Shown piece after piece: positions 437 through 30,917 of a DNA stretch of 32,113 nt. The notes under the pieces are model-generated. The model saw only the letters and a list, made by a program, of their open reading frames with translations, searched no databases and was not told the DNA's origin. The DNA lies in contig JAJYYI010000119.1 of assembly GCA_021801125.1 (NCBI GenBank), positions 84,191-116,303 of the forward strand. The letters run 5' to 3'. Both the position numbers and the translations under genes were made by a program. Every line of letters begins with the position of its first letter. Within the stretch, counting starts at the first letter, position 1. This DNA comes from Deltaproteobacteria bacterium (lineage in GTDB: Bacteria; Desulfobacterota; Binatia; Binatales; Binataceae).

Positions 437-456
437 TAGAACCCTTTAGAACCCTT
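437..456 (-). repeat. 10-bp perfect tandem duplication at the qmoB-qmoC junction
   Basis: On the plus strand TAGAACCCTT occurs twice in immediate succession (437-446 and 447-456). In the sense direction one copy encodes the last residues and stop of QmoB (Lys-Gly-Phe-stop). The other copy supplies the AAAGGG ribosome binding site for qmoC. The repeat therefore looks functional, perhaps the relic of a slip or duplication that created the qmoC start region. Confidence 0.85.
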
Positions 457-2581
457 TCATCGGGTTGGGACCAACCTCGTTTATCGCGTCGGCCAGCTTG
501 TTCAGCACGGAAGGAAGCTGAGCGTAATCGGCAATTGCGACCTCGACTACCTGAACGCGCTCCGGCTCGAGCATCAACCGTCCCAGAGTCTCCCGCATGT
601 TCGCCATCCGCTTTTCCAGCAGCTCACTGCCGTGGATGAAATGACACTGGTAGTCCTCGCCGGACTTGCATCCCAAAAGCGCCACGCCGTCGAAGCCGCG
701 CGAAACGGCGTCAGTCACGAGCACGCTATTGACCGAGCCGATACAGCGCACGGGGAGCACGCGAATCGAGGCCGGGTATTCCAACCGGTTGATTCCCGCC
801 ATGTCCAGCGCCGGATAGGCGTCGTTTTCGCAGGCCAGGGCCAGGATGCGCGGCTTTTCACCATCGGCCTCCGGTATTTCAACCGACTTTATCATGGCCG
901 ACAGAATATCCACCGAGTAGTCGGCAAACGAAATTATCTGCACCGGACAGGCCCCCATGCAGATCCCGCAGCGCCGGCAACGATTCGGATTGAGCACCGG
1001 ATTTCGCTTCTCGTTTAGCTCCAGCGCGCCGAACGGACACTCCTGCGTGCAGCGCCCGCAGGAGGTGCATTTCTGCATGAAAAACCCCGGGTAGGACATG
1101 TCGCCTACTCGCGGATGGACCGCCTGGCCGGCCGAACTCTTTTCGATCGATTGCATCGCCTTGAGCGCGGCCGCCCGCCCGTCGCGGGCCGCCGCCGCGA
1201 GGTCCATCGCTTGGCGCGCCGCGCCGGCTGAATAAATTCCGGTGCGGCGAGTCTCGTACGGAAAGCAGATGAAGTTGGAGTCGGCAAAGCCGAACTTTGT
1301 CACCGGCAGCTCCTGGCCCTGCAAATAGCGTAAAGCCAGCGCTCCGTCGCTAGTCGCCGTGTTAGGCGCCATTCCAGAGGCGAGAACGACAAGGTCAACC
1401 TCAAGCGCTGTTCCCGGACCGAGCGTCGTGCCGCTTAGTTCGACGGCCAGACTGTGATCGTGGGTCTCGCTTATGCGCTCGACTTGCCCCTGAGAAAGCA
1501 ACACGCCGGGGTCCGCCTGCACGGCGTGGTAGAAGTATTCATACTGTCCCGGCGTCTGGATGTCGCCGTAGAACAGGTAGGCGAGCGCTTCGGGGTTAAG
1601 CTCCCTGACGTATAGCGCTTGTTTGAGCGCGACCAGGCTCGAGACGTTCCCTCCGTATGGCAGATGCGCATCGTCGCCGCGCCCGTCGCATAGCAGGAAA
1701 AGCACGCGGCGGGCGGGTCCTCCGTCTGAAGGGCGCGCAACAACGCCGCGCTTGGCCATTTCTTCGAGCGCGACGCTCGTCGTGACGTTCGGATAAACGC
1801 CGAGACCGTAGCGCTCGTATTTTTCCGTCGCCACCGGCTGCCAACCCGTGGCCGCAATGATCGCACCGACGGTATCTTCGACGGTCCCTTGCGCGGTCCG
1901 CAGCGTGACCTTGAACCGCCCGGGTTCACCCTCGATAGACTCAACCGAGGAGCCGCAGTGGATTGCGACGTTCGGCAGCGCCCTGAGTTCCCGCACCTGT
2001 TCGACAACCGTAATCGGCGGCAAGCCGCGATAGGGAAACCGCTTCGGGAACTGCCGGTAAAGACGGTTCGCCCACCCGCCCAGCTCCTCCTGCTTCTCGA
2101 CGACTACGACGCGAAAGCCGCATCGGGCGGCGTTCAGGGCCGCGCTTATCCCGGCAATTCCGCCGCCGATTACCAGCACCGCGCGAGTATTCGCCTGGGT
2201 GTACGGCTGCGGGCGCGCGACCCTTTGCGCCCGCATAATCCCCATCCGAAGATAGTCCAGCGCCAGTTCTTGCGTCTCCGGATGGCCAGCCGGATGACTC
2301 CACGCCACCTGCTCGCGCAGATTGACGCGCTCGACCGTCGCGCCGGGAATCCGAAAGACGTCCGTATTGACTCTTGGTGAGCAAGCCGCGACCACCACGG
2401 CCTCAACCGCGCCCTCGGCGACGTCATCGCGAATGAGCCGCGAATCCTCCAGGCAAAACGCCGGCGACTTGCGCACCAGGCATCCGGCCTCGGCACCGAG
2501 CGCAGCGAGTTGCTCGACGTCTACCGCGCCTGCAATAGAGCAGCCCGAACAGATGTAGGCACCCACTTTCTTGTTGGCCAT
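446..2581 (-). CDS. qmoB: QmoB, HdrA-like flavin/iron-sulfur subunit with MvhD-like C-terminus
   Basis: This 711-aa protein is the electron-carrying subunit of the Qmo complex in the cytoplasm. The N-terminus has a CSGC motif (residues 11-14) as in HdrA. An FAD-binding glycine motif VIGGGIAG follows at about 137-144, with ELGG at 166-169. Two [4Fe-4S] clusters follow: C505-x2-C508-x2-C511-x3-C515 and C535-x2-C538-x2-C541-x3-C545. The last ~145 residues resemble the MvhD/FrhD electron-transfer domain, including CIGSVN and GCKSGEDYQCH. The chosen start gives MANKKVGAYIC; the open frame extends 47 codons further upstream from a TTG, but that part overlaps qmoA and has no family resemblance. The start is one base past the qmoA stop, implying translational coupling. 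Confidence 0.95.
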   Translation of the reverse strand: MANKKVGAYICSGCSIAGAVDVEQLAALGAEAGCLVRKSPAFCLEDSRLIRDDVAEGAVEAVVVAACSPRVNTDVFRIPGATVERVNLREQVAWSHPAGHPETQELALDYLRMGIMRAQRVARPQPYTQANTRAVLVIGGGIAGISAALNAARCGFRVVVVEKQEELGGWANRLYRQFPKRFPYRGLPPITVVEQVRELRALPNVAIHCGSSVESIEGEPGRFKVTLRTAQGTVEDTVGAIIAATGWQPVATEKYERYGLGVYPNVTTSVALEEMAKRGVVARPSDGGPARRVLFLLCDGRGDDAHLPYGGNVSSLVALKQALYVRELNPEALAYLFYGDIQTPGQYEYFYHAVQADPGVLLSQGQVERISETHDHSLAVELSGTTLGPGTALEVDLVVLASGMAPNTATSDGALALRYLQGQELPVTKFGFADSNFICFPYETRRTGIYSAGAARQAMDLAAAARDGRAAALKAMQSIEKSSAGQAVHPRVGDMSYPGFFMQKCTSCGRCTQECPFGALELNEKRNPVLNPNRCRRCGICMGACPVQIISFADYSVDILSAMIKSVEIPEADGEKPRILALACENDAYPALDMAGINRLEYPASIRVLPVRCIGSVNSVLVTDAVSRGFDGVALLGCKSGEDYQCHFIHGSELLEKRMANMRETLGRLMLEPERVQVVEVAIADYAQLPSVLNKLADAINEVGPNPMKGF

Positions 2582-2582
2582 C

Positions 2583-3959
2583 TCAGTTCCCGGCCGTCCG
2601 CGCCAGCGTCTCGATCGCCATCGCCGCGGCGGCGGTCGCGTCTTGCACCGAAGTCGCCACGTCAAACGGACCTCTGGCGCATCCCGCGGCGAAGATCCCG
2701 TCTTGCGGCTCGGCACCGGCAAACCAATCTTGGTCTACGCGAAAAGGTCCTGCCCGTAATGTCGAAGTTTCTGCTTCAGAACCGGCCGGCTCGAAACTCG
2801 GCCCCATCGCTCCGCTGCTCGACCTTTCCGATAAGCTCGACTCCATACCGGTGGCCAGAACCAGCAAATCGACCTGCAACCTGCTCTTGCGCGCCGAGAG
2901 GATATCCTCGGCCTCGACCACGAGCCGCCCGCTTTCGGCGTCCTGCACAACCTTGGCAATCTTACCTTTCTGCACGGTAACGGCAGGATCGCTGAGTATT
3001 TTCTTGGCGAAAAATTCGTAGGTTCCCGGCGTACGCAGGTCAATATAAAAGATATGAGCTCGCGCGTCGGGATTTTGCTCTCGCAGGTACGCCGCCTGTT
3101 TGAGCGAGGCCAGGCAACAAATCGTTGAACAATAGCCGAGATGATTATGGTCGCGCGAACCGGCGCATTGGACAAACGCCGCGCTTTTGACCGGCGCGCC
3201 GTCGGAGGGGCGCACGATGCGGCCGCCTGTCGGCCCGTTGGGCGCCGCCATCCGCTCCATCATAACGTTGGTGATCACGTCGGCGTACTTGCCAAAGCCA
3301 AGGTTGTCGATACGCCGCGCGTCGTAGGGCTTCCAGCCCGTGGCGATGATTATCGCGCCCGCTCTGAGCACGACCTCGCGCGGCTGCATCTTTAGATCGA
3401 TCGCGCCGTACTGGCACGCCTCGACACAACGCGCGCATTCGCTCAGCGCGCACGCCGTGTCGTCGATCACGTATTTCATCGGAAACGCCATATCGTGCGG
3501 AAGGTATATCGCTTTGGTCTTGCCCTGGCCGAAATTGAATGCGTCTGGGCGCTCTGCCGGGCAAACCGCGACGCAAGCATTGCAGGCGGTGCAGCGGTCG
3601 TTCACGTAGCGAGGCCTCAGCGCAACCCGCACCTCAAAGTTCCCCGGCGCGCCACTGATCGCCTCGACTTGCGCCATGGTGAAGAACCTGATTTTCGGAT
3701 TGTCCTTGATTCGGCGGAAGTTGATCTCAAGGCCGCAGTAGGGCGGACAAAGCTTCGGGAAATATCGGTAGAGCTGTGCGACACGGCCGCCCAGATAGGG
3801 CTCCTTCTCGATGATGACGGCTTCGTAGCCCGCCTCGGCCGCTTCGACCGCCGCGGTGATGCCGGCGATTCCGCCCCCAACGATCATGATTGTTCGGGAA
3901 ACCTCCGCCACGGCGGGGCCGGTTTCGCCCGGCAACGACGATTGCATGGCGGAAGCCAT
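2583..3959 (-). CDS. qmoA: QmoA, HdrA-like flavoprotein subunit of the Qmo complex
   Basis: This 458-aa flavoprotein forms the QmoAB soluble module that exchanges electrons with AprBA. An FAD-binding motif IMIVGGGIAGITAA sits at residues 24-37, with YLGGRV at 55-60. Iron-sulfur ligands are visible at C123-x2-C126-x2-C129-x3-C133 and in CALSECARCVEAC (170-182). An HdrA-like NAD(P)/FAD fold follows. The ATG at 3959 has no clear Shine-Dalgarno; a second ATG four codons in, or the one just before IVGGG (codon 25), are alternatives. The true N-terminus is thus uncertain by up to 24 residues. It lies between aprA and qmoB, the standard aprBA-qmoABC order of sulfate reducers and several sulfur oxidisers. 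Confidence 0.95.
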   Translation of the reverse strand: MASAMQSSLPGETGPAVAEVSRTIMIVGGGIAGITAAVEAAEAGYEAVIIEKEPYLGGRVAQLYRYFPKLCPPYCGLEINFRRIKDNPKIRFFTMAQVEAISGAPGNFEVRVALRPRYVNDRCTACNACVAVCPAERPDAFNFGQGKTKAIYLPHDMAFPMKYVIDDTACALSECARCVEACQYGAIDLKMQPREVVLRAGAIIIATGWKPYDARRIDNLGFGKYADVITNVMMERMAAPNGPTGGRIVRPSDGAPVKSAAFVQCAGSRDHNHLGYCSTICCLASLKQAAYLREQNPDARAHIFYIDLRTPGTYEFFAKKILSDPAVTVQKGKIAKVVQDAESGRLVVEAEDILSARKSRLQVDLLVLATGMESSLSERSSSGAMGPSFEPAGSEAETSTLRAGPFRVDQDWFAGAEPQDGIFAAGCARGPFDVATSVQDATAAAAMAIETLARTAGN

Positions 3960-3962
3960 CGG

Positions 3963-4133
3963 TTAGCGCACCGCCTCAGACGGCGCGGGCATGTTCGCCC
4001 AACCGAGCGCAAAGACACGCTCTGGCTCGAAGGTGCGAGCGCGCGCATAACACGGCGGCCCGTCGCCCCACCTATCGAAGTTGCTTAGTGTCCAGCGTGA
4101 GGCCGTCGCGTTAGGTATGTCACCGGCGCGCAT
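3963..4133 (-). CDS. Small unrecognised ORF between aprA and qmoA
   Basis: A 56-codon frame (start ATG 4133; an in-frame TTG at 4160 would give 65 aa and overlap the aprA stop as TTGA) fills the 197-nt aprA-qmoA interval and stops three bases before the qmoA ATG. The predicted peptide is rich in Arg, Ala, Trp and Pro, with no membrane segment or cysteine cluster. I do not recognise a family. Third codon positions are mostly G or C (about 70%), as expected for coding DNA here, and the frame fits the interval exactly, which argues for a translated leader or small subunit. No strong ribosome binding site is seen for either start, so it could be chance. Confidence 0.4.
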   Translation of the reverse strand: MRAGDIPNATASRWTLSNFDRWGDGPPCYARARTFEPERVFALGWANMPAPSEAVR

Positions 4134-4156
4134 TTTTCGAATCACCCAGCACCGGT

Positions 4157-6031
4157 TCAAGGGATCAGGGCCACATAAGGCTTTTTACTCAGCACCCATT
4201 CGCTCTTTTCAGGGTCGAAGCGCGAAACGGTGAAGCATTTCCAATTGGCATCATCGAGCTTGGGGAAGTCGCCGCGGTAATAATAACCAGGCCAGCGCGT
4301 TTCCTCGCGGAAGAGCATGTGGCGCATATGAGCTTCCGCGCAATAGTAGCGGTCCCAAACCTCCCAGGCGCGCAAAAGCTCGTGCAGATCGGACGCCGCC
4401 AAGCGCGACAAGTCGTCGCGCAGCATGTGCAGCAACTCAAGACCTCGCTTGAGGGTCGGCGCGTTGGTGATGTACCCGGCGCCTTGTCCCGCGCAGTATT
4501 CGTCCATGATCTTCTGCAGTCTCAGCAGCGCTTGTTTAGGCCCGAAGGCGTCGGGATTCACTTGGCCCCGCGTGGTCAGGGGACGAGTCTTTTCGTACAC
4601 TTCGAGCGGAGCAAAAAGCGCCTTTTTTACCTCTTCCACCCTATCCGACTCCGCTTCCACCGCCTGCGGATTGTCGTAGATGTAGGCAACCGCTGCCTTG
4701 CCCGCCAGACGTCCCTCTGTGTAAGAGCCCGAGGAGAATTTGTGCGCCGATCCTCCGACTCCGTCCCCGGCGGCGAAGAGCCCGCGCACCGTCGTCATTC
4801 GGTTGTAACCCCAAAAGTATTCCTTGGGTGCGATGTCCTCCGGTCCACTGACCCACGCGCCGGTGCCCGAGGCGTGCGAACCCATCAGGTAGGGTTCCGT
4901 AAGCACAACCTCGGAGGGCACTTTGGCGGGATCGACGTTCTCGGAGGCCCAGAGCAGCGCCTGCGACATCGTCATGTCCAGGAAATCCTCCCAGGCATCC
5001 GATTCGATCTCGCGCAGCTTCTTTGGGTCGTTCTGTACCTGCGCGAACATCGCCTGCAGCGCCTCGTCAGTGCGCAGGTAATGCGGGCCGTTGCCCTCCA
5101 GATGGTCGCGGATCATCTGATGGTTGCGAAGCGGAGTGGGAATCGGCTTGCCGCCTCCGTACGGCAGCCATTCCTTGAGCAGGTCCGCCCACTTCTTTTC
5201 GACCTCTTCGCCGTAAGCGTTCTTGAGCACGGCCTTGAACAGCAGAAACCACATCCCGACCGGTCCGTAGCCGTCCTTGAAACGGGCGACGACCAACCGA
5301 TGCTCCATCTGCGTCATCTCGGCGCCCGCCATGATCATCAGCTTGTAGACCGATCCGGTGTTCCACGGAGCGTACCAGATGCGCCCTAGACCTTCGCCGA
5401 CGGCGTGCGGCCGAAAGACTTGCGTGGCGCCTCCCGCCGCGCAGATTACGGCCTTGGCCTTGAAAACGTAAATTTTTGGATCGCGCACGCTGAAGCCGAC
5501 GGCCCCCGCGATGCGCCCCGAATCGTTTTTGTCGAGCAGCAGATGAGAGATAAAAATACGCTCGTAGATATTTTGCTCCCCGAGCGCCTTTTTGGCCGCC
5601 TCGGCGACGATCGGCTTGTACGACTCGCCATGGATCATCACCTGCCAACGGCCCTCGCGCTTATAGCGCCCGTCGGCCGTCTTGAAGATCGGCAGTCCCC
5701 ACTCCTCGAACATATGAACCGAGGAATCGACGTGGCGCGCGATGTCGTAGACCAGGTCCTCGCGCGACAACCCCATCAGGTCCTGGCGCACGTAGTGGAC
5801 AAAATCCTCCGGCTGATTTTCTCCCCACTTCATGCCCATGTAACAGTTAATCGCCGACAAACCCATCGCGACGGCGCCGCTGCGTTCCACCGCCGCCTTC
5901 TCCACCATCACCACGCGCAGCCCCTTGGCCTTGGCCCAGTATGCCGCCTCGTGCGCCGCGCCGCATCCCGCCATTCCGCCGCCGCAGATCAGAATGTCGC
6001 ACTCGACGACTTCGGTTTCAGGCGTCACCAT
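4157..6031 (-). CDS. aprA: AprA, adenylylsulfate (APS) reductase alpha subunit
   Basis: This 624-aa FAD protein interconverts APS and sulfite plus AMP with AprB. It has an N-terminal FAD motif ILICGGGMAGCGAA (13-26). The substrate-site block MEHRLVVARFKDGYGPVG (from 242) includes R245, the equivalent of the family's catalytic arginine, and the later GSHASGTGAWVSG segment carries the conserved histidine. A C-terminal segment rich in Tyr, Trp and Arg closes the protein, as in the family. The start at 6031 is set by GGAGG seven bases upstream; the frame is open further upstream without family resemblance. Family members are about 620-670 aa. The loop that in well-studied AprA proteins usually reads GSHSGCCG or similar is GSHASGTG here, a small divergence. 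It follows aprB after a 192-nt gap. Confidence 0.97.
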   Translation of the reverse strand: MVTPETEVVECDILICGGGMAGCGAAHEAAYWAKAKGLRVVMVEKAAVERSGAVAMGLSAINCYMGMKWGENQPEDFVHYVRQDLMGLSREDLVYDIARHVDSSVHMFEEWGLPIFKTADGRYKREGRWQVMIHGESYKPIVAEAAKKALGEQNIYERIFISHLLLDKNDSGRIAGAVGFSVRDPKIYVFKAKAVICAAGGATQVFRPHAVGEGLGRIWYAPWNTGSVYKLMIMAGAEMTQMEHRLVVARFKDGYGPVGMWFLLFKAVLKNAYGEEVEKKWADLLKEWLPYGGGKPIPTPLRNHQMIRDHLEGNGPHYLRTDEALQAMFAQVQNDPKKLREIESDAWEDFLDMTMSQALLWASENVDPAKVPSEVVLTEPYLMGSHASGTGAWVSGPEDIAPKEYFWGYNRMTTVRGLFAAGDGVGGSAHKFSSGSYTEGRLAGKAAVAYIYDNPQAVEAESDRVEEVKKALFAPLEVYEKTRPLTTRGQVNPDAFGPKQALLRLQKIMDEYCAGQGAGYITNAPTLKRGLELLHMLRDDLSRLAASDLHELLRAWEVWDRYYCAEAHMRHMLFREETRWPGYYYRGDFPKLDDANWKCFTVSRFDPEKSEWVLSKKPYVALIP

Positions 6032-6223
6032 CTTCGAACCTCCAATGTTAGCCTGAGGCGCCGCGCCGGCTGTCACGTGCCATGCGCGCGCGCGCGCTTC
6101 GCGCTGAATCGAAATGATCAACGCGCCGAGCACGGCGCCGTGCTCGCGACGCTCGTCCGAAACGAAGCGACGGTTGCGAAACGCGGGCGCTCGTTACCCG
6201 TTGCGGCGACCACCTTCGCCGTC
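6032..6223 (-). other. Long aprB-aprA intergenic region
   Basis: These 192 nt separate aprB from aprA, which are usually almost adjacent. The stretch contains the 20-nt palindrome at 6127-6146, an alternating CG tract near 6083-6096 that could itself fold with the neighbouring TTCGCGC, and the aprA ribosome binding site at its downstream end. I see no convincing internal promoter and no coding frame with family resemblance. Confidence 0.6.
6127..6146. repeat. 20-nt perfect palindrome between aprB and aprA
   Basis: CGAGCACGGC followed by GCCGTGCTCG is its own reverse complement. In the aprBA mRNA it would form a stem of at least 8 bp with a GCGC loop. No T-tract follows, so it does not look like a standard intrinsic terminator. 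Possible roles are an RNA processing or stability element, or an operator for a dimeric regulator. Confidence 0.6.
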
Positions 6224-6670
6224 CTACTGCGCAACAACCGGCAGCTTGTCAACGCCCAGAAATTTCTCTTGCCCGCAAAGATTAGGATTCTTGACGTCCT
6301 CGACCTTCGCGTCGGCAAGCCCCTGAAAAGGTTCAATCGAGCCCCAGGGCGTGGTGCGGATTGGGAAGCGAAAGCGCTTAGTCTCGTTGTTGCGAAACTT
6401 AACCGTCCAGATGATCGAGTCGGTGCCGCGCAACGGCGCCAGGCGCGCGCCGAAGGGCACCACGTCCGCATACCCGCGCATTTCGATCGCCGTCTGGGGG
6501 CACGTCTTAACGCAGGCGTAGCACTCCCAGCATTGGTCCGGCTCCTGGTTGTATGCTTTGCCCAGCCCCTTGTCCAAGGTCATCAGATCGTTCGGACAGA
6601 TGTACATACAGGCGGGACGGTCCAGGGCTTGGCACCCGTCGCACTTGTTTGGATTAACGAACGTCGGCAC
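6224..6670 (-). CDS. aprB: AprB, APS reductase beta (ferredoxin-like) subunit
   Basis: This 148-aa iron-sulfur protein feeds or accepts electrons for AprA. Eight cysteines bind two [4Fe-4S] clusters: C10, C13, C21, C25 and C47, C50, C53, C57, in the AprB pattern with the long insertion between the second and third cysteine of the first cluster (KCDGCQALDRPACMYICP). The C-terminal tail that wraps around AprA is present (to VDKLPVVAQ), and total length matches the family (~145-165). The start codon is GTG at 6670, supported by AGGAG about six bases upstream. It begins three bases after the sat stop. Confidence 0.96.
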   Translation of the reverse strand: MPTFVNPNKCDGCQALDRPACMYICPNDLMTLDKGLGKAYNQEPDQCWECYACVKTCPQTAIEMRGYADVVPFGARLAPLRGTDSIIWTVKFRNNETKRFRFPIRTTPWGSIEPFQGLADAKVEDVKNPNLCGQEKFLGVDKLPVVAQ

Positions 6671-6673
6671 CGC

Positions 6674-7906
6674 TCACTCCTGTCGCGCCAGCGGCTTGGG
6701 CCCGGGCTTTGCCGAGCGCTTGCCGCTCGCACCCTCCTGTTCGGCCGCGTAGTACTTGCGCAAGATCTCCAGCACCTCGGGACGGCTGAAATGGTCCGGA
6801 ACGTCGACACCCTCGGAAAGCATCTCGCGCAACGCCGTGCCGCTCACCATCACGCGCTGCGAGACGTCGTGCGGACACGTGCGCGCCGACGCCATGCCGT
6901 CGCACTTACGGCAGTAAAACGTCCAGTCCAGCTTGAGCGGCTTAATTTCCAGAGCGCCGTCCGGCACTTGATCGAAAATCTTCTGCGCGTCGAAGGGCCC
7001 GTAGAAATTTCCCACGCCCGCGTGGTCGCGGCCCACTATCAGATGGCTGCAGCCGAAGTTTTGGCGGAATACCGCGTCCAGCAGCGCTTCACGCGGGCCG
7101 GCATACCGCATCTCGATCGGCACGCCCGCCTGGATACAAGTGTCTTTGACGAAGTAATTCTGCACCGCCGCGTTAACCGCCTCGACGCGCACTTCAGCCG
7201 GTATATCCCCGGGCTTAAGTCTGCCCAGCTTCTGATGCACTAGCAAGCCGTCGCAAACCTCGATGGCGATTTTGGCCAGGTACTCGTGCGAGCGATGCAT
7301 CGGATTGCGCAATTGAAGTCCAGCAACCGTGCCCCAGCCGCGCGCTGCAAACGCTGCGCGCGTTTGCTCGGGGCGCAGGTAAATGTTGGGGTAACGCTCA
7401 GGATAGCCGCTTTCGCTGAAAACCACGACCGGCCCGCCCAGGTTAACCTCGCCCTCGGCCAGCACTCCAGCCACCCCCGGATGAGTCGGATCAGTTGTTC
7501 CGAATACCTCGCGGCACTGGTAAAGCTTATCGGCTTCATAGATGTCGCGAATCTCAAGGCAACCGAGCAGCTCGCCCGTTTCTTCCTCAACCAGCGCTAC
7601 TTCCTGCCCCAGGCGAAGCTCGCGGGCTCGCTCGCGCGGGGTCGACACCGTAATCGGCACCGGCCAAAAAACGCCGGAGGCGGTGCGGAAATCGGCGCAT
7701 ACCGATTTCCAGTCGTCGCGCCCCATGAAGCCCTCCAACGGCGTATAGGCGCCGATCCCGAGCATCACCAGATCGCTGGCTTCCCGCGAGGAAAGCGTGA
7801 TTTTCTGAAGCGTCTGCGCTCGGCGCCGAGATTCAGCTCCTGCCGCGCTACTGAGCAACCGAGGCTTAAGCTGACGCTCGCCGCCGTGCGGATTCACCAA
7901 AGGCAT
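6674..7906 (-). CDS. sat: Sulfate adenylyltransferase (ATP sulfurylase)
   Basis: This 410-aa enzyme makes APS from ATP and sulfate, or runs in reverse to make ATP from APS in sulfur oxidisers. It has the nucleotide-binding motifs [10 protein letters not shown] (198-207) and GRDHAG (292-297). A zinc ribbon follows: C332, C335, C344 and H346. Length fits the homo-oligomeric dissimilatory type with no APS kinase domain; the Lys/Pro-rich last ~20 residues look like an unstructured tail. The ATG at 7906 is preceded by a G-rich GGGGGAG with short spacing. It is the first gene of the sat-aprBA-qmoABC run. Confidence 0.96.
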
Positions 7907-8284: not shown

Positions 8285-9517
8285 TCAGACGACGCCTTCG
8301 GCGCGAAGCTCTTCGACCTGACCGCGAGTGTAGCCGAGCAGTTCGCCCAAGACCTCCACGGTATGCTCGCCGAGCAAGGGCGACGATTTGATTTCCACCG
8401 GACTCTCGGAAAGAGAGATCGGACAGCCCACGGTCTTGAAGCTCTTGCGCTGCGGATGAGGAACGTCGGCGATTATTTCGCGCTGAGCAAGAGCCTGGTC
8501 CTCGATGAGATCCTTCATCGACAGGATAGGCCCGCACGGCACGTCGACCTCGTTGAGCATCCGCGTGACCTCGAACTTGGTATATCGCATCGTCCATTGC
8601 TCGATCATCGCGAACACTTCCCCGAGACGCTCGACGCGCGCCTCAACGGTGGCAAAGGCGGGGTCGTCGGCTAACTCCGGCCGTCCGATAATGCGGGCCA
8701 ACGCCGGCCATACCTGCGCCTGGACGATCACGTAGACGTAATCGTTCGGGCCGCCCGGCTTGCAACGGAGCGCCGAGCCGGGATGTCCACCGCCGCTCGC
8801 ATTTCCGGACCGCGGCACGGTGTCGCCAAAGGTTTTGTTGGGGTACTCCTTGAGCGGCCCGCGTTGCAGGCGCTGCTGGTCGCGCATTTTGACCCGGCAG
8901 AGGTTGAGCACCGCGTCCTGCATCGCAACCTCAACTCGCTGCCCCCTACCGGTGTTGGTACGTTGATAAAGCGCGGCCAGGATGCCGGCGACTGCATGCA
9001 TCCCGGTGCCGGAGTCGCCGATTTGCGCGCTCGTGCTGGTTGGCGGGCCGTCTTCCCATCCGGTGGTGCTCATCGCGCCGCCCATCGCCTGCGCGACGGT
9101 CTCGTAGGCCTTGCAATCCACGAACGGCCCCGGGCCGAAGCCTTTTATCGAGGCGTAGATAAGTCTCGGGTTAAGCTCGCGCAGATGCTCCCAGGTGAAA
9201 CCGGCGCGATCCAGGGCCCCAGGACCGAAGTTTTCCACCAGAATATCGACGCGCGCGACCAGCCGCTCGAGGATCTGTTTGCCTTTCGGTGATTTGAAGT
9301 TGAGCGTGACGCTGCGCTTGTTGCAGTTGAGCATCGTGAAATACAGAGAGTCCACGTCCGGAATGTCGCGAAGCTGGCCGCGAGTGATATCACCGCGTCC
9401 AGGCACCTCGATTTTGAGTACGTCGGCCCCTAGCCACGCCAGTATCTGAGTGCAGGACGGACCCGACTGGACGTGGGTCATATCGAGAATGCGTACGCCG
9501 TCTAAAGCCTTTGCCAT
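8285..9517 (-). CDS. frc: Formyl-CoA:oxalate CoA-transferase-like class III CoA-transferase
   Basis: This 410-aa class III CoA-transferase moves CoA between formyl-CoA and an acid acceptor, oxalate in characterised FRC. Motifs shared with Oxalobacter FRC run the whole length: [46 protein letters not shown] and PLLGEHT. The catalytic aspartate is D168 in [10 protein letters not shown] (Asp169 in Oxalobacter). Residue 48 is Gln, as in E. coli YfdW, rather than the Trp of Oxalobacter FRC. The start at 9517 has GAGGAA six bases upstream. It is the last gene of a gntR-lyase-frc cassette, 151 nt after the lyase gene. The true acceptor acid is an inference because the partner lyase is not a typical oxalyl-CoA decarboxylase. 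Confidence 0.87.
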
Positions 9518-9668
9518 CGACTATTCCTCGCTGCAATGCTGTTGCTAGCCCCGGTCGCCGCCCACGCTGCCAAAAGCCGCTCGCGGCTCGAACCCGCTCT
9601 TCCGGCGCCAACCGCGCCTTTCCGTTGCACCGCTTCTATTCGCGCTCTCGGTTACGGCTGATGGACGA

Positions 9669-11381
9669 TCACTTGTACATCGTTTGGTTCATCGTGCCGG
9701 GGGCAAACGCGTCTGGATTCACCCACACGTTGATTAAGGCGCATTTGCCGGATTCGCGCGCCCGCCTCAACGCCGGTCCGATCTGAGCCGGGTCGCGCAC
9801 CTCCTCACCGTAGCCGCCGAACATGCGTGCGAACTCCTCGAAGTGCACGTCGCCGAGATAGTTGGCGATCTCGCCTCGCTCGCGGCCGTATTTCGCGATT
9901 TGACCGTAGCGAATCTGATTCATGTGCGAATTGTTCCCGATCACGCCGATAAACGGCAGGTTGAAGCGCACGCACGTCTCGAAATCCCAGCCGGTGAGTC
10001 CGAAGGCGCCGTCACCAAACAGGCACACGACCTCCTTGCGCGGATGGACGTACTTGGCGGCCATCGCAAACGGCGTTCCCACACCCAACGTGCCGAGCGG
10101 CCCCGGGTCCATCCAGCGGCCGGGCGCCTTGGGCTGAATCACGCCGGCCGAGAAAGTCACGACGTCACCGCCGTCGCCGATAAAAATTGACTCCTCGGTG
10201 AGAAATTCGTTGATCTCGTGCGCCAGGCGCAGCGGATGGATCGGCGCCTCCTCGGAAAGGCGCTTGGGCAAGGCACCTTTTTCGAGGCGAAGCTCCTCGG
10301 CGCGCAGCTCCTTTTTCCATTCCTCCCGTGACTTCGCGCCGTTGTCGACAAGGCCCGAGGAAGCCTGAACGACCGCGGACAAGATCGCTCCCGCGTCGCC
10401 AACCAGCCCCAGCGAAATGTCGCGATTTTTCCCCACGGTACGATAGTCGAGATCGATCTGCACCACGGTTGCCTCGGACCGCAATCGCCGCCCGTAACCC
10501 ATCCGGAAATCAAACGGCGTGCCGACTATCACGATAACGTCCGCCTTGTCGAAGGCGTAGCGACGAGTCTGGTGGAAATGATGCTCGTCGCCGGGAGCCA
10601 AAGTGCCGCGCGCGGCGCCGTTCATGTAGGCCGGTATGTTAAGCCGCCGACAAAACTCGGCCGCCGCCTCAACCGCGCGACATGTCCATACCTGCGTGCC
10701 GAACAGCACACAAGGCCGCTTGGATTTGACCAGAATCTGAGCCAGCTTCTCGATATCGGCCGGGTCGCCCGCGCTTCTGGTCGAAGCGCGATATCTGCCT
10801 GCCGCGGGAATTCGCGCGCTTGCAACGTCGACCTTGGCGTCCAGAATGTCGCGCGGAATCTCGAGGAATGAGGGCCCGGGAGCGCCGTGGTAGCACTCGC
10901 GAAAAGCCATGCTGATCATGTCGGCGATACGCTCGGTCGCGGGCACTGTGGCGGCAAACTTGGTCAGCGGGCGCATCAACTCGACGTGCGGCAAGTCTTG
11001 CAGCGAGCCCATCTTATGCTGACTGAGCGCGCCCTGGCCCCCAATCACCAGCATCGGGCTTTCCGCGCGAAAGGCATTGGCAACGCCGGTAACCGCGTCC
11101 GTTGTCCCAGGGCCGGCGGTCACGACCGCGCAGCCGGGCTTGCCCGACATTCGGGCGTATCCGTCGGCGGCATGCGCCGCGACTTGCTCGTGACGCACGT
11201 CGATAATGTCGATACCCTCGTCCGCGCAGCCGTCGTAGATGTCGATTATGTGGCCGCCGCAGAGCGTGAAGATTACGTCCACGCCTTCATTCTTGAGCGC
11301 CTTGGCTACCAGATGACCGCCGGAAATCTTGCCCTCATCCGCGGCCGGTCGCGTGCCGCCTGGTTGCGCCATCGTGGCCAT
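9669..11381 (-). CDS. ThDP-dependent 2-hydroxyacyl-CoA lyase / oxalyl-CoA decarboxylase-family enzyme
   Basis: This 570-aa protein has the three-domain thiamin diphosphate fold. The ThDP-activating glutamate is E65 in DVRHEQ. The ThDP/Mg motif begins at GDG (456-458) and ends in NN (483-484). Oxalyl-CoA decarboxylases have a DYEE motif whose Tyr-Glu lies near residues 120-121; here the region reads GSLQDLPHVEL (125-135), so those residues are absent. The sequence instead resembles 2-hydroxyacyl-CoA lyases, which split 2-hydroxyacyl-CoA into formyl-CoA and an aldehyde or ketone. The ATG at 11381 has GGAGG eight bases upstream; an upstream extension of the frame to 11498 overlaps gntR and is not used. 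It sits 37 nt behind gntR and before frc, so the products probably act together on formyl-CoA. An acetolactate-synthase-like activity is the main alternative. Confidence 0.8.
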   Translation of the reverse strand: MATMAQPGGTRPAADEGKISGGHLVAKALKNEGVDVIFTLCGGHIIDIYDGCADEGIDIIDVRHEQVAAHAADGYARMSGKPGCAVVTAGPGTTDAVTGVANAFRAESPMLVIGGQGALSQHKMGSLQDLPHVELMRPLTKFAATVPATERIADMISMAFRECYHGAPGPSFLEIPRDILDAKVDVASARIPAAGRYRASTRSAGDPADIEKLAQILVKSKRPCVLFGTQVWTCRAVEAAAEFCRRLNIPAYMNGAARGTLAPGDEHHFHQTRRYAFDKADVIVIVGTPFDFRMGYGRRLRSEATVVQIDLDYRTVGKNRDISLGLVGDAGAILSAVVQASSGLVDNGAKSREEWKKELRAEELRLEKGALPKRLSEEAPIHPLRLAHEINEFLTEESIFIGDGGDVVTFSAGVIQPKAPGRWMDPGPLGTLGVGTPFAMAAKYVHPRKEVVCLFGDGAFGLTGWDFETCVRFNLPFIGVIGNNSHMNQIRYGQIAKYGRERGEIANYLGDVHFEEFARMFGGYGEEVRDPAQIGPALRRARESGKCALINVWVNPDAFAPGTMNQTMYK

Positions 11382-11418: not shown

Positions 11419-12165
11419 TCAATCCAAATCGTGAACGTTAGCGGCCACGTGAGCAGCCAGGTTGAGCGCGTGTTCACGCACCAGAGTTTCGGCCGCAACC
11501 GTGTCGCGCCGCTCCAGCGCCTCGATTATGTTCATATGATCGACGATCGAACGCGCATAGCGCCGCTTCTCGCCTATCGTGCGGCGGCGAATCGCTCGCA
11601 TATGGATGAGGATGCTGCTCGCCAGGCGTATCAGCAGAGCGCTGTGACTCATCTCGATGATGCGTTGATGGAACCGTAGATTGGCCTCCGAGTACTCGTC
11701 AAGCTTGGCCTCGATTCTTCCCCCGTCGAACTCGGCGAAAAGCGCGCGCAGCGTCGCGACCTCCTGGCCGGTCGCTTCCACCGTGGCCAGTCGGGCGGCC
11801 ATGCTCTCCAACGCCGCCCACACCGTGATGATTTCGATGACCTCGGTCTTGGACTTTCGCACGACGTAGACGCCGCGCCGCGCGACCGTCTTGACCAAGC
11901 CTTCTTGCTCCAGCCGAGCGATCGCGCTGCGAATAGGGGTTCGGCTTATCCCCAGTTGCTGCGCAAGCTTCCTCTCATCCAGGCGCAAATCCTCACCGGC
12001 GCGGTAGATGTCCCGGGCCATGATCGCCTGGCGCAGCGCCTCGTACGCGCGCACGGTCATAGTGCGGTCGGGCCTTAGCCGCTTAAGTCGCAGCCTGTCC
12101 GTGCCGGAAGTCGAACGCCAATTCGTCTTGGCGGGCGAAAGGGGATTGCTTGCTTCGATTTCCAT
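11419..12165 (-). CDS. GntR-family (FadR/FCD subfamily) transcriptional regulator
   Basis: This 248-aa regulator has an N-terminal winged helix-turn-helix (about 36-105, containing LAQQLGISRTPIRSAIARLEQEGLV) and a C-terminal all-helical FCD ligand domain. The latter shows the metal/ligand residues D-x6-N-x3-H (in YSEANLRFHQ and before), DHMNIIEAL and REHAL. The reading frame is open to 12534, but the start is placed at ATG 12165: a promoter and operator lie just upstream at 12206-12237, and the extension has no family resemblance. GAGG occurs 11 nt before the ATG, slightly far. It likely senses an organic acid and controls itself and the two enzyme genes downstream. A later start at 12060 is possible. 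Confidence 0.88.
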   Translation of the reverse strand: MEIEASNPLSPAKTNWRSTSGTDRLRLKRLRPDRTMTVRAYEALRQAIMARDIYRAGEDLRLDERKLAQQLGISRTPIRSAIARLEQEGLVKTVARRGVYVVRKSKTEVIEIITVWAALESMAARLATVEATGQEVATLRALFAEFDGGRIEAKLDEYSEANLRFHQRIIEMSHSALLIRLASSILIHMRAIRRRTIGEKRRYARSIVDHMNIIEALERRDTVAAETLVREHALNLAAHVAANVHDLD

Positions 12166-12678: not shown

Positions 12679-13578
12679 TCAGTCGTTCTGTGAGAGCTCG
12701 ACCAGATAGTCGGTCAATCCGACCAAATGTTCTTTGAAAAGAGCGACAGTAGCGCGCACCGCAGAGAGCATCGCTACCCGATCCCTGATTTCATTAAGAC
12801 CGAGCCTTACGTTGTCAGCGCCATTGGCCGTGAGAAGAGCGGCCTTATACTCTGTTAGCGCGTACAGCCGTCCAACATTCCTCCACCGGGTGATTAAGGC
12901 TTGGCGCCACGTCAGGCCACCCAGGGTCTGTTCGGCCGGGGTATTCAGAAACCTCCAAACGGAATCGGGGTACTTGCTGGCCGCGTCCGGCTGGCGTCCT
13001 AGAATCTCAGTCAGCATCGCCGGCGTGCTGCCCAGGGGCGCTTTGTCGCCCTCGCGCAGTTGTTGTACCGCGATACTAAGTCCGGCGGCCGCAGCACCTG
13101 CGATAGCGCCGATTAGATTTCCAGCTTCACGCGTGCTCTGAGGTACGCGCAGGCTGGAGCCGACTGCCCCTGTTCCCGTGGCCAGCGTGAGAGTTCCAAG
13201 GTTAACCAGATTGAGGTTGCGATCGCGCTCCGCGGCAATGATGAACGACATCTCATCCAGCCGCGTAATCTCATTGTCGATCCTTGCGATTGTGTAATCG
13301 ATATCCAGAATAGCTTTGATTACCTTAAGGTTCAGCGATTGAAGCGCCAGAGCTTCTTGACCGGCATCGCGTGAGATCGAGCCCGCTTTGATCATTTTTA
13401 CGAGCCGACAGAGTTGCTTTTCCGCTCCGATCTGCCGCGCCGTAATAATGATGTCGCCAGGCAACCCCCAGCCAAGGTTGTCCGCGCAGGCGGCGAAGCT
13501 CGTACCGGTGGTTCCGATCAGAATCTGAAGCGTTGCGTACAACAACCATAGACACGCTATGTATCTGGCTTTCATCAT
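12679..13578 (-). CDS. Exported protein of unknown function
   Basis: I do not recognise this 299-aa protein. It begins with a Sec-type signal peptide (MMKARY, a hydrophobic stretch, then TGTSFA before ACADN), so it should be exported. The mature part is mainly helical, with a charged helical region at about 75-140 that may form coiled coil. A Gly/Ala-rich hydrophobic pair of segments follows at about 145-190 (LGTLTLATGTGAVG and GNLIGAIAGAAAAGLS) that could insert in a membrane. A C-terminal helical region ends the protein. The frame extends 26 codons upstream; the tandem ATG at 13578/13575 is chosen because it starts the signal peptide, though no strong ribosome binding site is seen. It stands alone and is visibly less GC-rich than the neighbouring operons. 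Confidence 0.75.
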   Translation of the reverse strand: MMKARYIACLWLLYATLQILIGTTGTSFAACADNLGWGLPGDIIITARQIGAEKQLCRLVKMIKAGSISRDAGQEALALQSLNLKVIKAILDIDYTIARIDNEITRLDEMSFIIAAERDRNLNLVNLGTLTLATGTGAVGSSLRVPQSTREAGNLIGAIAGAAAAGLSIAVQQLREGDKAPLGSTPAMLTEILGRQPDAASKYPDSVWRFLNTPAEQTLGGLTWRQALITRWRNVGRLYALTEYKAALLTANGADNVRLGLNEIRDRVAMLSAVRATVALFKEHLVGLTDYLVELSQND

Positions 13579-13759
13579 CAAACAACCCGCTGCTGAATAC
13601 CGTAAAAAATCCGTCACCAAAAATTCGCTTCCTGATATAACAAGGACGCTACTCAAAGGTGCGGCCCTTCGTGTTTAACGCGCTGGCAGGTTACGAACGC
13701 GCCAAATACGAGGCGTCCCAAAAATATCGGTTTGGAGTCCTTCGCGCGAGATCGGTCCT

Positions 13760-15237: not shown

Positions 15238-17055
15238 ATGTGGCTGCTGCCAATCGCACTGATGGCGACCGCAACGGTGATAGCGATTCCTTTAAGCCGA
15301 TACGCCGCCTGGATCATGGAGGGTCAGTATCGCCCGCCGCGCTTGCTCGCGTGGTTCGAAAAGCGGCTTGACAACGGAGCTCAAACTTGGAAGCAGTATG
15401 CTGGCGCGCTTCTGATATTCAACACCGTCCTCTTCATTTACGGCTTTGTGGTTTTAGCGGCGCAGCCCTGGATGCCCCTAAACCCGCAGCATAAGGGGAT
15501 GCTCGCGCCCACGGTCATCTTCAACTCCGTCGCCTCGTTCATGACCAACACCAATCTTCAGCACTACGCCGGCGAGGTGCACCTTTCGAATTACAGTCAG
15601 ATATTCTTCGTAATTTACAACCAGTTCGTCTCGGCGGCTGTCGGCTTCTGCGCGTTGGTTGCGATAATCCGCGCCTTTCGCGGCGAAAAACTGGTCGGCA
15701 ACTTCTTCCTCGATATGTGGCGCGTGGTGATGTACATGTTCGTTCCGGCCGCGCTCATTTCCGGCGTGCTCTTCATTCAGCAAGGCATGCCGATGACTTA
15801 CCACAGTTCGTACCAAGTTTCCACCTTGGAGCCCGCAGCGATGGGAGTTACGGACAACGGACAGGCAAAGCCGCAGACTATAGTGGTCGGCCCGGTCGCC
15901 GCTGTCGTCCCGATCAAGATGCTGGGCACCAACGGCGGCGGATTTTACGGCATGAACTCCGCGCATCCGCTGGAAAACCCCAGCGCCTGGACCAACTTCC
16001 TCACTACGCTGGATATGATGATTTTCCCGTTTACCCTGGTGTTGCTTTACGGCCGGATGCTCAAACGCAGGCGGCATTCCTGGGTGATCTTCTCAGTGAT
16101 GGCGCTCCTGATGATTGGAACCATCGTATGGGCGATCTACTTCGACACATTGAAACCTAACCCAGGTTTAACCGCGCATCCCACGGCAAGGAGTTTCGAG
16201 ATACCCAACCCGTCAGCGCCAGGAGGCAAACGCACCTTCACCGTGCCAGCGGTGGCCGGCCTGCCCGTGGATCAGCACCTGGGAAATCTAGAGGGCAAGG
16301 AGATGCGCTTCGGCATTTCGGCGGGCGCTACGTTCGCAGCTGTCACCGTTGATGTGACATGCGGCGCGGTGAATTGCGAGCACGATAGCCTTAATCCAAT
16401 CGCGGCTTTGTCGCCGATGACGGGAATGTGGCTCAACTGCGTTTACGGCGGCAAGGGCGTCGGCATGATTAACCTCTTGCTCTTCCTGATCGTGGGCGTG
16501 TTTCTAGCCGGTCAGATGGTCGGACGAACTCCCGAGTACTTGGGCAAGAAGGTCGGCGCGCGGGAGATGAAGCTCGCCATGATCGCGCTGCTGGTCCATC
16601 CAATTATGATTCTCGGGCCGACCGGGCTTTTCGCGGCGACGACCTGGGGTACCAAGGCTATAAACAACCCTGGCGCCCACGGCTTTTCCGAAATGCTATA
16701 CCAGTTCTCATCGTCCTCCGCGAATAACGGCTCAGCCTTCGACGGCCTCGCGGTGACCACCGGCTTCGCCGACAATCCCAATCCACCGCCCACGGGAAAG
16801 CAATGGGATATCGCGACTGGCTTAGTGATGCTGCTCAGCCGCTATCTGCCGATTATTGCTCCGATCGCGATGGCGGCAAGCCTGGGCTACAAGAAGCCGA
16901 CGCCGTTCGGACTCGGAACACTGCGCGACGACACCCCCACGTTCGGGTGTCTTTTGTTCGGCACGATTGTGATAGTCGGCGCGCTCCTCTTCTTGCCAGT
17001 GGCGGCGCTGGGTCCGCTCGCCGAGCACCTGGGACCGATCCCGTTCGGCGGCTGA
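15238..17055 (+). CDS. kdpA: KdpA, potassium-translocating subunit
   Basis: This 605-aa inner-membrane protein forms the K+ channel-like part of the Kdp P-type ATPase. The four selectivity-filter loops are visible: TNTNLQHY (103-110), GTNGGGF (230-236), TCGAVNCEHDSLNP (374-387) and SANNGSAF (494-501). About ten hydrophobic helices surround them. It is roughly 45 residues longer than E. coli KdpA, mostly in a periplasmic loop around 305-350. The start is supported by GAGGT seven bases upstream. It is followed by kdpB after 60 nt. Confidence 0.97.
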   Translation: MWLLPIALMATATVIAIPLSRYAAWIMEGQYRPPRLLAWFEKRLDNGAQTWKQYAGALLIFNTVLFIYGFVVLAAQPWMPLNPQHKGMLAPTVIFNSVASFMTNTNLQHYAGEVHLSNYSQIFFVIYNQFVSAAVGFCALVAIIRAFRGEKLVGNFFLDMWRVVMYMFVPAALISGVLFIQQGMPMTYHSSYQVSTLEPAAMGVTDNGQAKPQTIVVGPVAAVVPIKMLGTNGGGFYGMNSAHPLENPSAWTNFLTTLDMMIFPFTLVLLYGRMLKRRRHSWVIFSVMALLMIGTIVWAIYFDTLKPNPGLTAHPTARSFEIPNPSAPGGKRTFTVPAVAGLPVDQHLGNLEGKEMRFGISAGATFAAVTVDVTCGAVNCEHDSLNPIAALSPMTGMWLNCVYGGKGVGMINLLLFLIVGVFLAGQMVGRTPEYLGKKVGAREMKLAMIALLVHPIMILGPTGLFAATTWGTKAINNPGAHGFSEMLYQFSSSSANNGSAFDGLAVTTGFADNPNPPPTGKQWDIATGLVMLLSRYLPIIAPIAMAASLGYKKPTPFGLGTLRDDTPTFGCLLFGTIVIVGALLFLPVAALGPLAEHLGPIPFGG

Positions 17056-17115
17056 GCGTGGGACGGATTCCCGGGGTCCTAGAACCAACCGCGCGCGACT
17101 TCGAGGAAAGACAAA

Positions 17116-19281
17116 ATGAAAATGACAGAACTGGCTAATGTCGCTCCTGAAACCGCCTCTTCGCTCACGCCGCGCCCCGCTCCGCGGCGCATCAGGCGGC
17201 AAAGCTTGTTTGCGCCTGCCCTGTTGCGCACCGCGCTCAAACAGGCCTTCGTAATGATGCGCCCGGACATCCAGTGGGCCAATCCGGTGATGTTCGTGGT
17301 CGAAGTGGGAGCGGTATTAACGTTGCTCTTTGTAATCCAGGCGGCTGCAGGCCGATCATCGAGCCAAGTTCCAGTCAGCTATTTCGTGGCGCTCGACTTC
17401 TGGCTCTTTGTCACGGTCTTGTTCGCGAACTTCGCCACCGCTCTTGCGGAAGCTCGCGGCAAGGCGCAAGCCGATTCTCTGAAGCAAACGCGGCGTGAAA
17501 CTCCCGCGTTCCGCTTGCGCGGCAAAGACATCATCGAAGAGGTGTTGTCGAGTGACCTTAAGCCTGGCGATCGCGTAATCGTTTCGGCTGGACAGATCAT
17601 CCCGCGTGACGGCGAAGTTGTCGAAGGTATCGCCGCGGTGGATGAATCAGCTATCACCGGCGAATCGGCCGCGGTGATTCGCGAGGCGAATAGCGATCAC
17701 TCTGGTGTTACCGGTGGCACACGGGTGCTCTCGGACCGCATCGTGGTGCGCATCACCGCGGCGTCGGGGGAATCGTTTCTCGATCGGATGATAGGGCTGG
17801 TCGAGGGCGCGGTTCGCCAGCGAACACCCAACGAGATCGCTCTCACTCTGGTGCTCTCGGCGTTGACGCTGATCTTCCTGATCGTGGTTGTCCCGCTCTG
17901 GCCGATGGCGTACAACGCCGAGCAATACATGGCTAGCTACCTCGGCGTCCCCGACTCCCTTCACAGCTTGGGCACCGACGTGCCGACCTTGGTCGCTCTA
18001 CTGGTGTGCCTGATTCCGACGACGATTGGCGCCCTTCTCGCTGCGATCGGCATCGCGGGCATGGACCGCGCGCTCCAGGCCAACATCATTGCGAAGAGCG
18101 GCCGCGCGATAGAGACTGCTGGCGATATCGACACCGTGCTGCTTGATAAGACCGGCACCATCACCATCGGCAATCGCCACGCGACTGACTTCATCCCAGT
18201 CGGCCAAAGCTCAATTGATGAACTGCGGCGTCTTGCGGCATTGTCGTCGCTGGCCGATGAAACCCCGGAAGGCAAGAGCATCGTGCGTGCGTTCGAGGAG
18301 CAGCAGCGCAACCGCGAACCGATGAATATACCGTCTGGCGCGCGCTTTGTGCCATTTACCGCGCAGACTCGGATGAGCGGGATTGACCTTCCCTCGGGCG
18401 TTCAAGTGCGCAAAGGCGCGCCGGATGCGGTTTTGAAGTTCATTACCACACAGGGCGCCAGCGCTCCGGCAGACCTCAACCGAGTGGTGGAAACGGTCGC
18501 CGCCAAGGGCGCCACGCCCCTGGCGGTCGCGCAAGGCGCGACCATCCTGGGAGTGGTCGTTCTGGAAGATATTCTCAAGGCAGGCACGAGCGAGCGTTTG
18601 GAGCGGCTACGCAAGGCGGGTGTGCGGACCGTGATGATTACCGGGGACAACTCGCTCACCGCGGCGACGATCGCCAAACAGGCAGGGGTCGATGCATTCG
18701 TCGCTGAAGCAACACCTGAATCAAAGCTTGCCTACATTCGCCAGGAGCAGCGCGAGGGCAAGCTCGTCGCCATGGTCGGTGACGGCACTAACGACGCGCC
18801 GGCCTTGGCGCAGGCCGATGTAGGGCTGGCCATGAACTCCGGCACACAGGCTGCGAAGGAAGCCGGCAACATGGTGGACCTCGACAGCAATCCGACCAAG
18901 TTGATCGAGGTGGTGGAGATCGGCAAGCAACTTTTGATGACGCGGGGCTCGCTGACGACCTTTTCGGTCGCTAATGACGTTGCGAAGTATTTCGCGATCA
19001 TTCCCGCACTGTTTGCGAGCACCCTGCCGTGGCTTCGGCCGATGGACATAATGCACCTGCATTCACCAACCTCGGCGATCCTTTCCGCCGTGATTTTTAA
19101 CGCGCTTATAATTCCCGCCCTAATTCCGGTGGCGCTTAAGGGCGTTCGCTATCAGCCGTTGGGTGCCGACGCTCTACTGCGACGCAACCTTTTGGTCTGG
19201 GGACTCGGCGGTGTAATTGTGCCCTTCATCGGCATCAAGCTGATCGACGTTGTTATGGTCGGGTTGGGTCTAGCCTCCTAA
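17116..19281 (+). CDS. kdpB: KdpB, P-type ATPase catalytic subunit
   Basis: This 721-aa P-type ATPase hydrolyses ATP to drive K+ uptake. It has the actuator motif TGES (181-184, whose serine is the inhibitory phosphorylation site in E. coli), phosphorylation loop DKTGT with D344, a nucleotide-binding domain containing KGAPDA, and the hinge motif GDGTND (555-560). Hydrophobic helices lie near 55-110, 245-310 and 640-720. ATG 17116 has GAGGAAA six bases upstream. The first ~30 residues form a Pro/Arg-rich cytoplasmic tail. kdpC follows after 29 nt. Confidence 0.97.
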
Positions 19282-19310
19282 ACTCTCTGTGCCCAGGGCG
19301 GAGAAAAAAG

Positions 19311-30916: not shown

Positions 30917-30917
30917 G

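Follow-up and report, generated by a model that had tools for sequence, protein, structure and literature searches.

A formyl-CoA transferase paired with a lyase of another thiamine diphosphate clade: a probable oxalate cycle with a stand-in for oxalyl-CoA decarboxylase

What does a formyl-CoA:oxalate CoA-transferase (FRC) do when the enzyme encoded beside it is not the usual oxalyl-CoA decarboxylase (OXC)? The question is raised by a 32,113-nucleotide stretch of a Deltaproteobacteria bacterium of the family Binataceae (contig JAJYYI010000119.1 of assembly GCA_021801125.1, positions 84,191 to 116,303), hereafter called the window, in which an FRC gene is paired with the gene for a thiamine diphosphate (ThDP)-dependent lyase. 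A reading made from the letters alone, the sequence-only reading, had described two open reading frames (ORFs), which are indeed found on the minus strand where it had put them. It took them for a true FRC and a relative of 2-hydroxyacyl-CoA lyase (HACL), jointly recycling formyl-CoA in a closed cycle fed by 2-hydroxyacids. We consider it highly probable, on the evidence of gene identity and operon context, that the two genes encode a cycle for oxalate degradation, with a member of another clade of ThDP lyases in place of the usual OXC.

The identity of the transferase is the simpler part of the question. It passes both NCBIfam models for FRC, TIGR03253 (653.8 bits, cut-off 504.2) and PRK05398 (673.9 bits, cut-off 442), and in an alignment to the Oxalobacter enzyme (2vjq) Q17, Q48, D168 (the catalytic Asp, D169 in O. 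formigenes) and the GGG loop are all in place. A published set of bacterial FRCs is reported to conserve Q17, D169 and G259-260 fully, the consensus residue at position 48 being Q (PMC10192776). Judged by these scores and residues, the gene encodes a true formyl-CoA transferase, as had been proposed.

The lyase is harder to name. Its best NCBIfam model, PRK05858 ("acetolactate synthase"), gives 474.7 bits, below the curated cut-off of 587; the HACL model NF058623 gives 344.6 bits (cut-off 600) and the OXC model PRK09259 242 bits (cut-off 557). Altogether 51 NCBIfam models match, and each of the 25 listed scores under its own cut-off. With TIGR03254, the clade members listed reach about 215-256 bits against a cut-off of 739, and three alphaproteobacterial members fell short of the 1e-60 threshold. 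The lyase is 24-25% identical to the OXCs of O. formigenes and E. coli and 31-32% identical to HACL-type enzymes; across 110 lyase rows (97 distinct genes, minimum identity among rows 60%), identity to 14 OXCs averages 26% and never exceeds 30%. A maximum-likelihood tree of ThDP enzymes (53 rows, 27 of them lyases; AtOXC not included) gives 100/100 support to the lyase clade and to the OXC clade alike, and a split supported at 99/91 sets OXC and HACS apart from a group made up of the lyase clade, PRK05858-like relatives 39% identical to it, the actinobacterial 2-hydroxyisobutyryl-CoA lyase AcHACL and acetolactate synthase. The window lyase lies outside the OXC clade. The exact sister of its clade is unsure because the tree program warned of long branches (AcHACL, acetolactate synthase and others); in the tree as it stands the nearest sister is a ThDP group 38-40% identical to the lyase. 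On this evidence the lyase is no orthologue of OXC, and belongs to a fully supported clade of its own, nearer to 2-hydroxyisobutyryl-CoA lyase. This part of the sequence-only reading, an HACL-like partner without the Tyr-Glu of OXC, holds good. The 38-40%-identical group (L101-L113 and others) is itself common in the window's family; L101, the member that was scanned, also has PRK05858 as its best model and also lies below the cut-off. A predicted structure was dropped as a means of telling OXC from HACL, owing to low confidence and tied folds: the AlphaFold2 model has a mean predicted local distance difference test score of 72.7, which drops below 50 at the C-terminus and in several loops of the active site, and HACS, glyoxylate carboligase, OXC and benzaldehyde lyase tie at Z scores of about 35-38 when this low-confidence model is compared. 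AcHACL ranks high in Foldseek and is not among the 50 VIA-align matches listed.

By alignment the active site contains the cofactor-activating Glu, E65, together with H44, T88, L127-Q128-D129 and Q489-I490; the C-terminal QTMYK is invariant in the lyase clade. S126-L127-Q128-D129 of the lyase correspond to D-Y-E-E in 14 of 14 OXCs; the Tyr120-Glu121 and Tyr483 of OXC (14/14) are replaced by Leu-Gln and Asn in all 110 lyase rows. H44, T88, L127 and Q128 are present in all 97 distinct members, as in AcHACL, at positions occupied in the 14 OXCs by Pro, Val, Tyr and Glu; the roles of H44, T88 and Q128 on the substrate side of AcHACL come from PMC8760513. The likeness to AcHACL (PDB 7pt1-7pt4; 32% identity to the window lyase) extends to D129, P131 and H132, which are in register, and to the ADP-site Arg, which is absent from both. 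The two nevertheless differ. The window lyase scores under the HACL cut-off; AcHACL has a large C-terminal lid formed by residues 556-590 (PMC8760513), a region in which the window lyase stops, at residue 570. Above all, every one of the 97 distinct members has Ile at the position of AcHACL E493 and Gln at that of I492. E493 is the catalytic acid/base Glu that distinguishes the HACL reaction in AcHACL (PMC8760513), and decarboxylation would require no acid/base of this kind. The absence of Tyr-Glu, which the sequence-only reading took to speak against oxalate, is not decisive, because eukaryotic OXCs carry Phe-Gln at that position (PMC9090294) and bacterial OXC mutants with Tyr or Glu changed to Ala retain about 10% activity (PMC7190790). 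Phe-Gln is found in formyl-CoA-making enzymes more widely, both in AtOXC, a reported catalyst of the oxalyl-CoA step with 40-43% identity to bacterial OXC (PMC9090294), and in HACL/S (8vza and others).

A function for the clade is suggested by its surroundings. A search with the lyase returned at least 80 genome loci at 73-88% identity, the family being larger than listed, and 8 plasmid records at 65-75%, of which 7 were fetched; with the window this makes 88 loci, to which the following counts refer. In all 88, which come from several phyla and were fetched by their similarity to the lyase, FRC directly follows the lyase, and the pairing is far beyond chance. A gene of the NDP-forming acetate-CoA-ligase family (ACD) is present in 80, directly 3' of FRC in 78, and SucC and an OFA/OxlT-type transporter occur in 41 and 39, respectively. 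A GntR regulator at least 42% identical lies upstream in 14; a looser tally of 57 mixes orthologues with weak 28-35% matches to unrelated regulators. The same frame surrounds canonical OXC. In Skermanella the order is GntR-oxc-frc-ACD-sucC-sucD followed by formate dehydrogenase (FDH), and in Azospirillum ramasamyi it is GntR-oxc-frc-sucCD. Between operons of the two kinds the compared regulators are 52% identical, the pair compared being the window's regulator 5' of the lyase and the GntR preceding oxc-frc in Skermanella, and the ACDs are 67-79% identical. FDH genes adjoin OXC in four loci (L147, L148, L179, L181) and the lyase in two (L156, L160), with NAD-FDH in L147, L148, L156 and L160, and OxlT adjoins either enzyme; the genes used as references for the neighbourhoods included no others for 2-hydroxyacids. 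In short, the lyase clade stands in the oxalate operon where OXC would.

Genomes with the one enzyme also lack the other. No OXC over cut-off was found in any of 50 lyase genomes (50 of the 80 loci searched; E. coli control positive), nor in the window genome at E 1e-90. Among 190 Alphaproteobacteria, 15 carry FRC over cut-off, adjoining the lyase in 9 and OXC in 6; among 246 actinobacteria there are 19, with FRC adjoining the lyase in 14 and OXC in 4, and with OXC 21.5 kb away in one further genome (G379). The two class-wide samples thus hold 34 FRC-bearing genomes, 23 with the lyase, 11 with OXC, none with both and none with neither (one-sided Fisher p = 3.5e-9, uncorrected for kinship). Two of the lyase genomes, G087 and G052, were the search centres; without them the counts are 21 and 11 (p = 7.8e-9, likewise uncorrected). 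A third, G081, was drawn in the sample and was already known from the 50 lyase genomes searched for OXC. The 11 OXC genomes contain no lyase-clade gene, the best match being 32% identical. In the window's own family OXC occurs in 12 of 41 genomes and the lyase in 6, again without overlap.

The exchange can be followed in individual operons. A tree of FRCs (63 rows, thinned from 112) needs five changes between lyase and OXC as partner, of which well-supported branches force at least three (by the OXC label) or at least four (by the lyase label); the FRCs of L155, partnered by the lyase, and L152, partnered by OXC, are 87.5% identical and are sisters at support 96. The DNA of Cupriavidus campinensis is 84% identical to the lyase cluster of C. 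metallidurans on one flank of a gap and 86-87% identical on the other; in the gap the lyase interval shrinks from 2.07 kb in C. metallidurans (L011 5678-7749) to 0.22 kb (L176 12958-13174), and an oxc-frc pair stands between regulator and sucD. This megaplasmid carries a lyase operon that lost its lyase, adjoining an oxc-frc pair. In the actinobacterium G379 the order is ALDH (aldehyde dehydrogenase)-sucD-sucC-[166 bp]-frc-ACD-OFA without the lyase, and oxc and FDH genes lie on the same contig. In both organisms only the lyase is missing from the matching operon, and OXC lies within 22 kb. A third case, G485, in which two solitary FRCs of the lyase type lie 12-18 kb away from oxc-frc, is weak evidence: these FRC genes contain N and are partly duplicated, the one read through having an unknown residue and an in-frame repeat of about 60 residues, and a misassembly is likely. 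Two observations concern the arrangement of these FRCs. The C. campinensis megaplasmid has three FRC genes (L176 4539-5759, 8731-9966 and 13211-14404) round a single oxc, and on contig 34 of G485 the lyase-type FRCs (L228 5363-6766 and 10739-12151) flank sucCD-ALDH in mirror orientation.

Because the clade exchanges with OXC in this way, its function would be that of an oxalyl-CoA decarboxylase, and the simplest account would be that it represents a second, independently evolved enzyme of this kind, interchangeable with OXC in the Oxc/Frc cycle. From gene identity, clade, operon frame, mutual exclusion and repeated exchange of partner we infer that oxalyl-CoA is the substrate, how catalysis proceeds and what individual residues do. 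FRC would use formyl-CoA to convert oxalate to oxalyl-CoA, with release of formate; the ThDP ylide of the lyase, activated by E65, would attack the thioester carbonyl of oxalyl-CoA; CO2 would depart, and protonation of the carbanion would give formyl-CoA, which would return to FRC. The net reaction would be oxalate + H+ to formate + CO2, each turn being free of ATP. Formate could pass to formate dehydrogenase where one exists, and the NDP-forming acyl-CoA ligases of many relatives (ACD, SucCD) may prime or drain the CoA pool. Such a cycle would share with that of Oxalobacter formigenes and E. coli (yfdW-yfdU) a true FRC, the operon frame, formyl-CoA recycling and the expected products, and would differ in an enzyme in the decarboxylase slot that is about 25% identical to OXC and has neither Tyr-Glu, Y483 nor the ADP-site Arg.

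Several observations weigh against this interpretation. The core formed by H44, T88, L127-Q128-D129, P131 and H132 matches 2-hydroxyisobutyryl-CoA lyase and not OXC. Of the two acyl-CoA arginines named in ApbHACL/S, R260 and R400 (PMC11271303), the first alone has an equivalent in the lyase clade (R273), Gly or Ala standing in place of the second, and all but one of 110 lyase rows (109) have Ala for the ADP-site Arg (R156). CoA binding must therefore differ in part. ApbHACS, which stands on the OXC side of the tree, keeps the ADP-site Arg, unlike the window lyase. No ACD, SucCD or OxlT gene lies beside the window pair, and the formate dehydrogenase homologue of the window genome is only 37% identical and lies on another contig. 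The absence of overlap within the family, with 6 and 12 genomes in 41, is not significant (0.11), and mutual exclusion could arise from different substrates competing for one FRC. One lyase genome, G276, also has an HACL/S-like protein (L167) that passes PRK09259 (575.5 bits, cut-off 557); it fails TIGR03254 (534 against 739), has Phe-Gln and groups with ApbHACS rather than with OXC, so that PRK09259 may over-call OXC. The FRC of G379 is not adjacent to its OXC, and in G485 ACD is gone as well. Finally, searches of the open-access PMC literature yielded no activity or phenotype data for any member of the clade, and the titles and beginnings of abstracts that they listed yielded no member characterised or indicated as an oxalyl-CoA decarboxylase. 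A grey, inactive clade in the 134-enzyme HACL screen behind PMC11271303 could include relatives.

The same evidence bears on three other explanations. In that of the sequence-only reading, cleavage of a 2-hydroxyacyl-CoA by the lyase yields formyl-CoA plus a carbonyl compound, and the CoA of formyl-CoA is handed on by FRC to the next 2-hydroxyacid. The H44/T88/Q128 set and the LQD-PH motif common to the lyase and AcHACL, and the position of the clade in the tree, with AcHACL and not with OXC, agree with it, as does an aldehyde dehydrogenase gene in 13 of the 88 loci, such as an aldehyde-releasing enzyme might want. That gene is absent from the other 75, however, and is retained in G379 and G485, where the lyase is lost; the acid/base E493 specific to the lyase reaction is Ile, with Gln for I492, throughout the clade; and within one and the same operon, next to OxlT and near-identical FRCs, the clade and OXC take each other's place. 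As this cycle would yield formate too, FDH genes close by favour neither explanation. The lyase-like core of the active site leaves the explanation some standing, and we regard it as unlikely. No better is the chance of its wider form, an ATP-free conversion of a 2-hydroxyacid (or, in this lineage, a sulfonated one) to formate and a carbonyl compound, with the exchange of OXC reflecting two substrates of one promiscuous FRC. What survives of the proposed closed cycle is formyl-CoA recycling as its likely logic; the 2-hydroxyacid substrate fits poorly with the exchange of OXC and the loss of E493.

It is very unlikely that the enzyme is bifunctional, such that a formyl anion derived from oxalyl-CoA is also condensed with an aldehyde (e.g., glyoxylate) to a 2-hydroxyacyl-CoA, leading from oxalate to C2/C3 assimilation. 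OXC and HACL do have a hydroxymethyl-CoA-ThDP intermediate in common (PMC11271303), the active site is ligase-like and a regulator annotated as BhcR adjoins the Phyllobacterium cluster, but BhcR-like genes are labelled in only 2 of the 88 loci, and FDH rather than assimilation genes accompanies both kinds of operon within the reference set used. The remaining explanation is confined to this lineage: FRC would activate a sulfonated 2-hydroxyacid (e.g., sulfolactate), the lyase would cleave it, and Apr, Sat and Qmo would oxidise the sulfite. The genes sat, aprB, aprA and two qmo-like genes do follow on the same strand, and no DsrA in the window genome exceeds the cut-off, which fits sulfite oxidation and not sulfate reduction to sulfide. 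Against this, sulfur genes adjoin the pair in only 2 of the 88 loci, both from one genus (the window and L015 = L126), 378 bp separate FRC from sat, and the active-site positions of the window lyase are unchanged relative to the rest of the clade. Because of this confinement to one genus, sulfite-releasing sulfonate catabolism was rejected as the role of the pair; we hold such a role to be extremely improbable.

If the oxalate cycle is indeed what these genes encode, oxalyl-CoA decarboxylation would have arisen at least twice among ThDP lyases: one origin with Tyr-Glu, the other from a lyase-type active site after loss of its acid/base Glu. The two enzymes would offer a natural comparison of the residues needed for decarboxylation and for 2-hydroxyacyl cleavage. 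Censuses based on oxc would then miss many oxalate degraders, the lyase alone being present in 23 of the 34 sampled FRC-bearing genomes, and oxc-marker studies of soil oxalate turnover and of the oxalate-carbonate pathway would be biased, above all for actinobacteria. A published census in which 1396 OXCs form one network at 50% identity (PMC7190790) is unlikely to contain the lyase clade, because no lyase of the clade exceeds 30% identity to the OXCs compared here.

The features of the locus are collected in Table 1. The regulator lies 37 bp from the lyase and the lyase 151 bp from FRC; a scan for promoters and terminators found no signal exceeding that of shuffled sequences.

Table 1. Genes of the FRC-lyase locus and the sulfur genes that follow it (positions in the window).
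Feature	Position	Strand	Remark
GntR/FCD-family regulator	11419..12060	minus	start codon inferred
ThDP-dependent acyl-CoA lyase, proposed stand-in oxalyl-CoA decarboxylase	9669..11381	minus	570 aa
Formyl-CoA:oxalate CoA-transferase (FRC)	8285..9517	minus	410 aa
sat, aprB, aprA, two Qmo/HdrA-like genes	446-7906	minus	downstream of FRC

The sat-aprBA-qmo genes probably serve sulfite oxidation by reverse Apr/Sat, and are probably a lineage-specific feature rather than part of the oxalate module. Between the regulator and the Kdp genes, a 325-aa ORF (12679-13656) has no Pfam match at 0.001. Farther on, at 15238-20327 and 22354-25484, ORFs read by eye as KdpA, KdpB and KdpC and, after them, a porin-like protein (its ORF without an NCBIfam match), a sensor kinase and a response regulator of the sigma-54 type, and an ORF resembling a tyrosine-recombinase integrase stands near the window end (29837-31141; by eye). 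Outside the window, also by eye, a QmoC-like Fe-S/membrane ORF follows the qmo genes (L248 7460-8626), which are adjoined by PqqC-like, radical-SAM (PqqE-like), ABC transporter and M16-peptidase-like ORFs (L248 89-7000).

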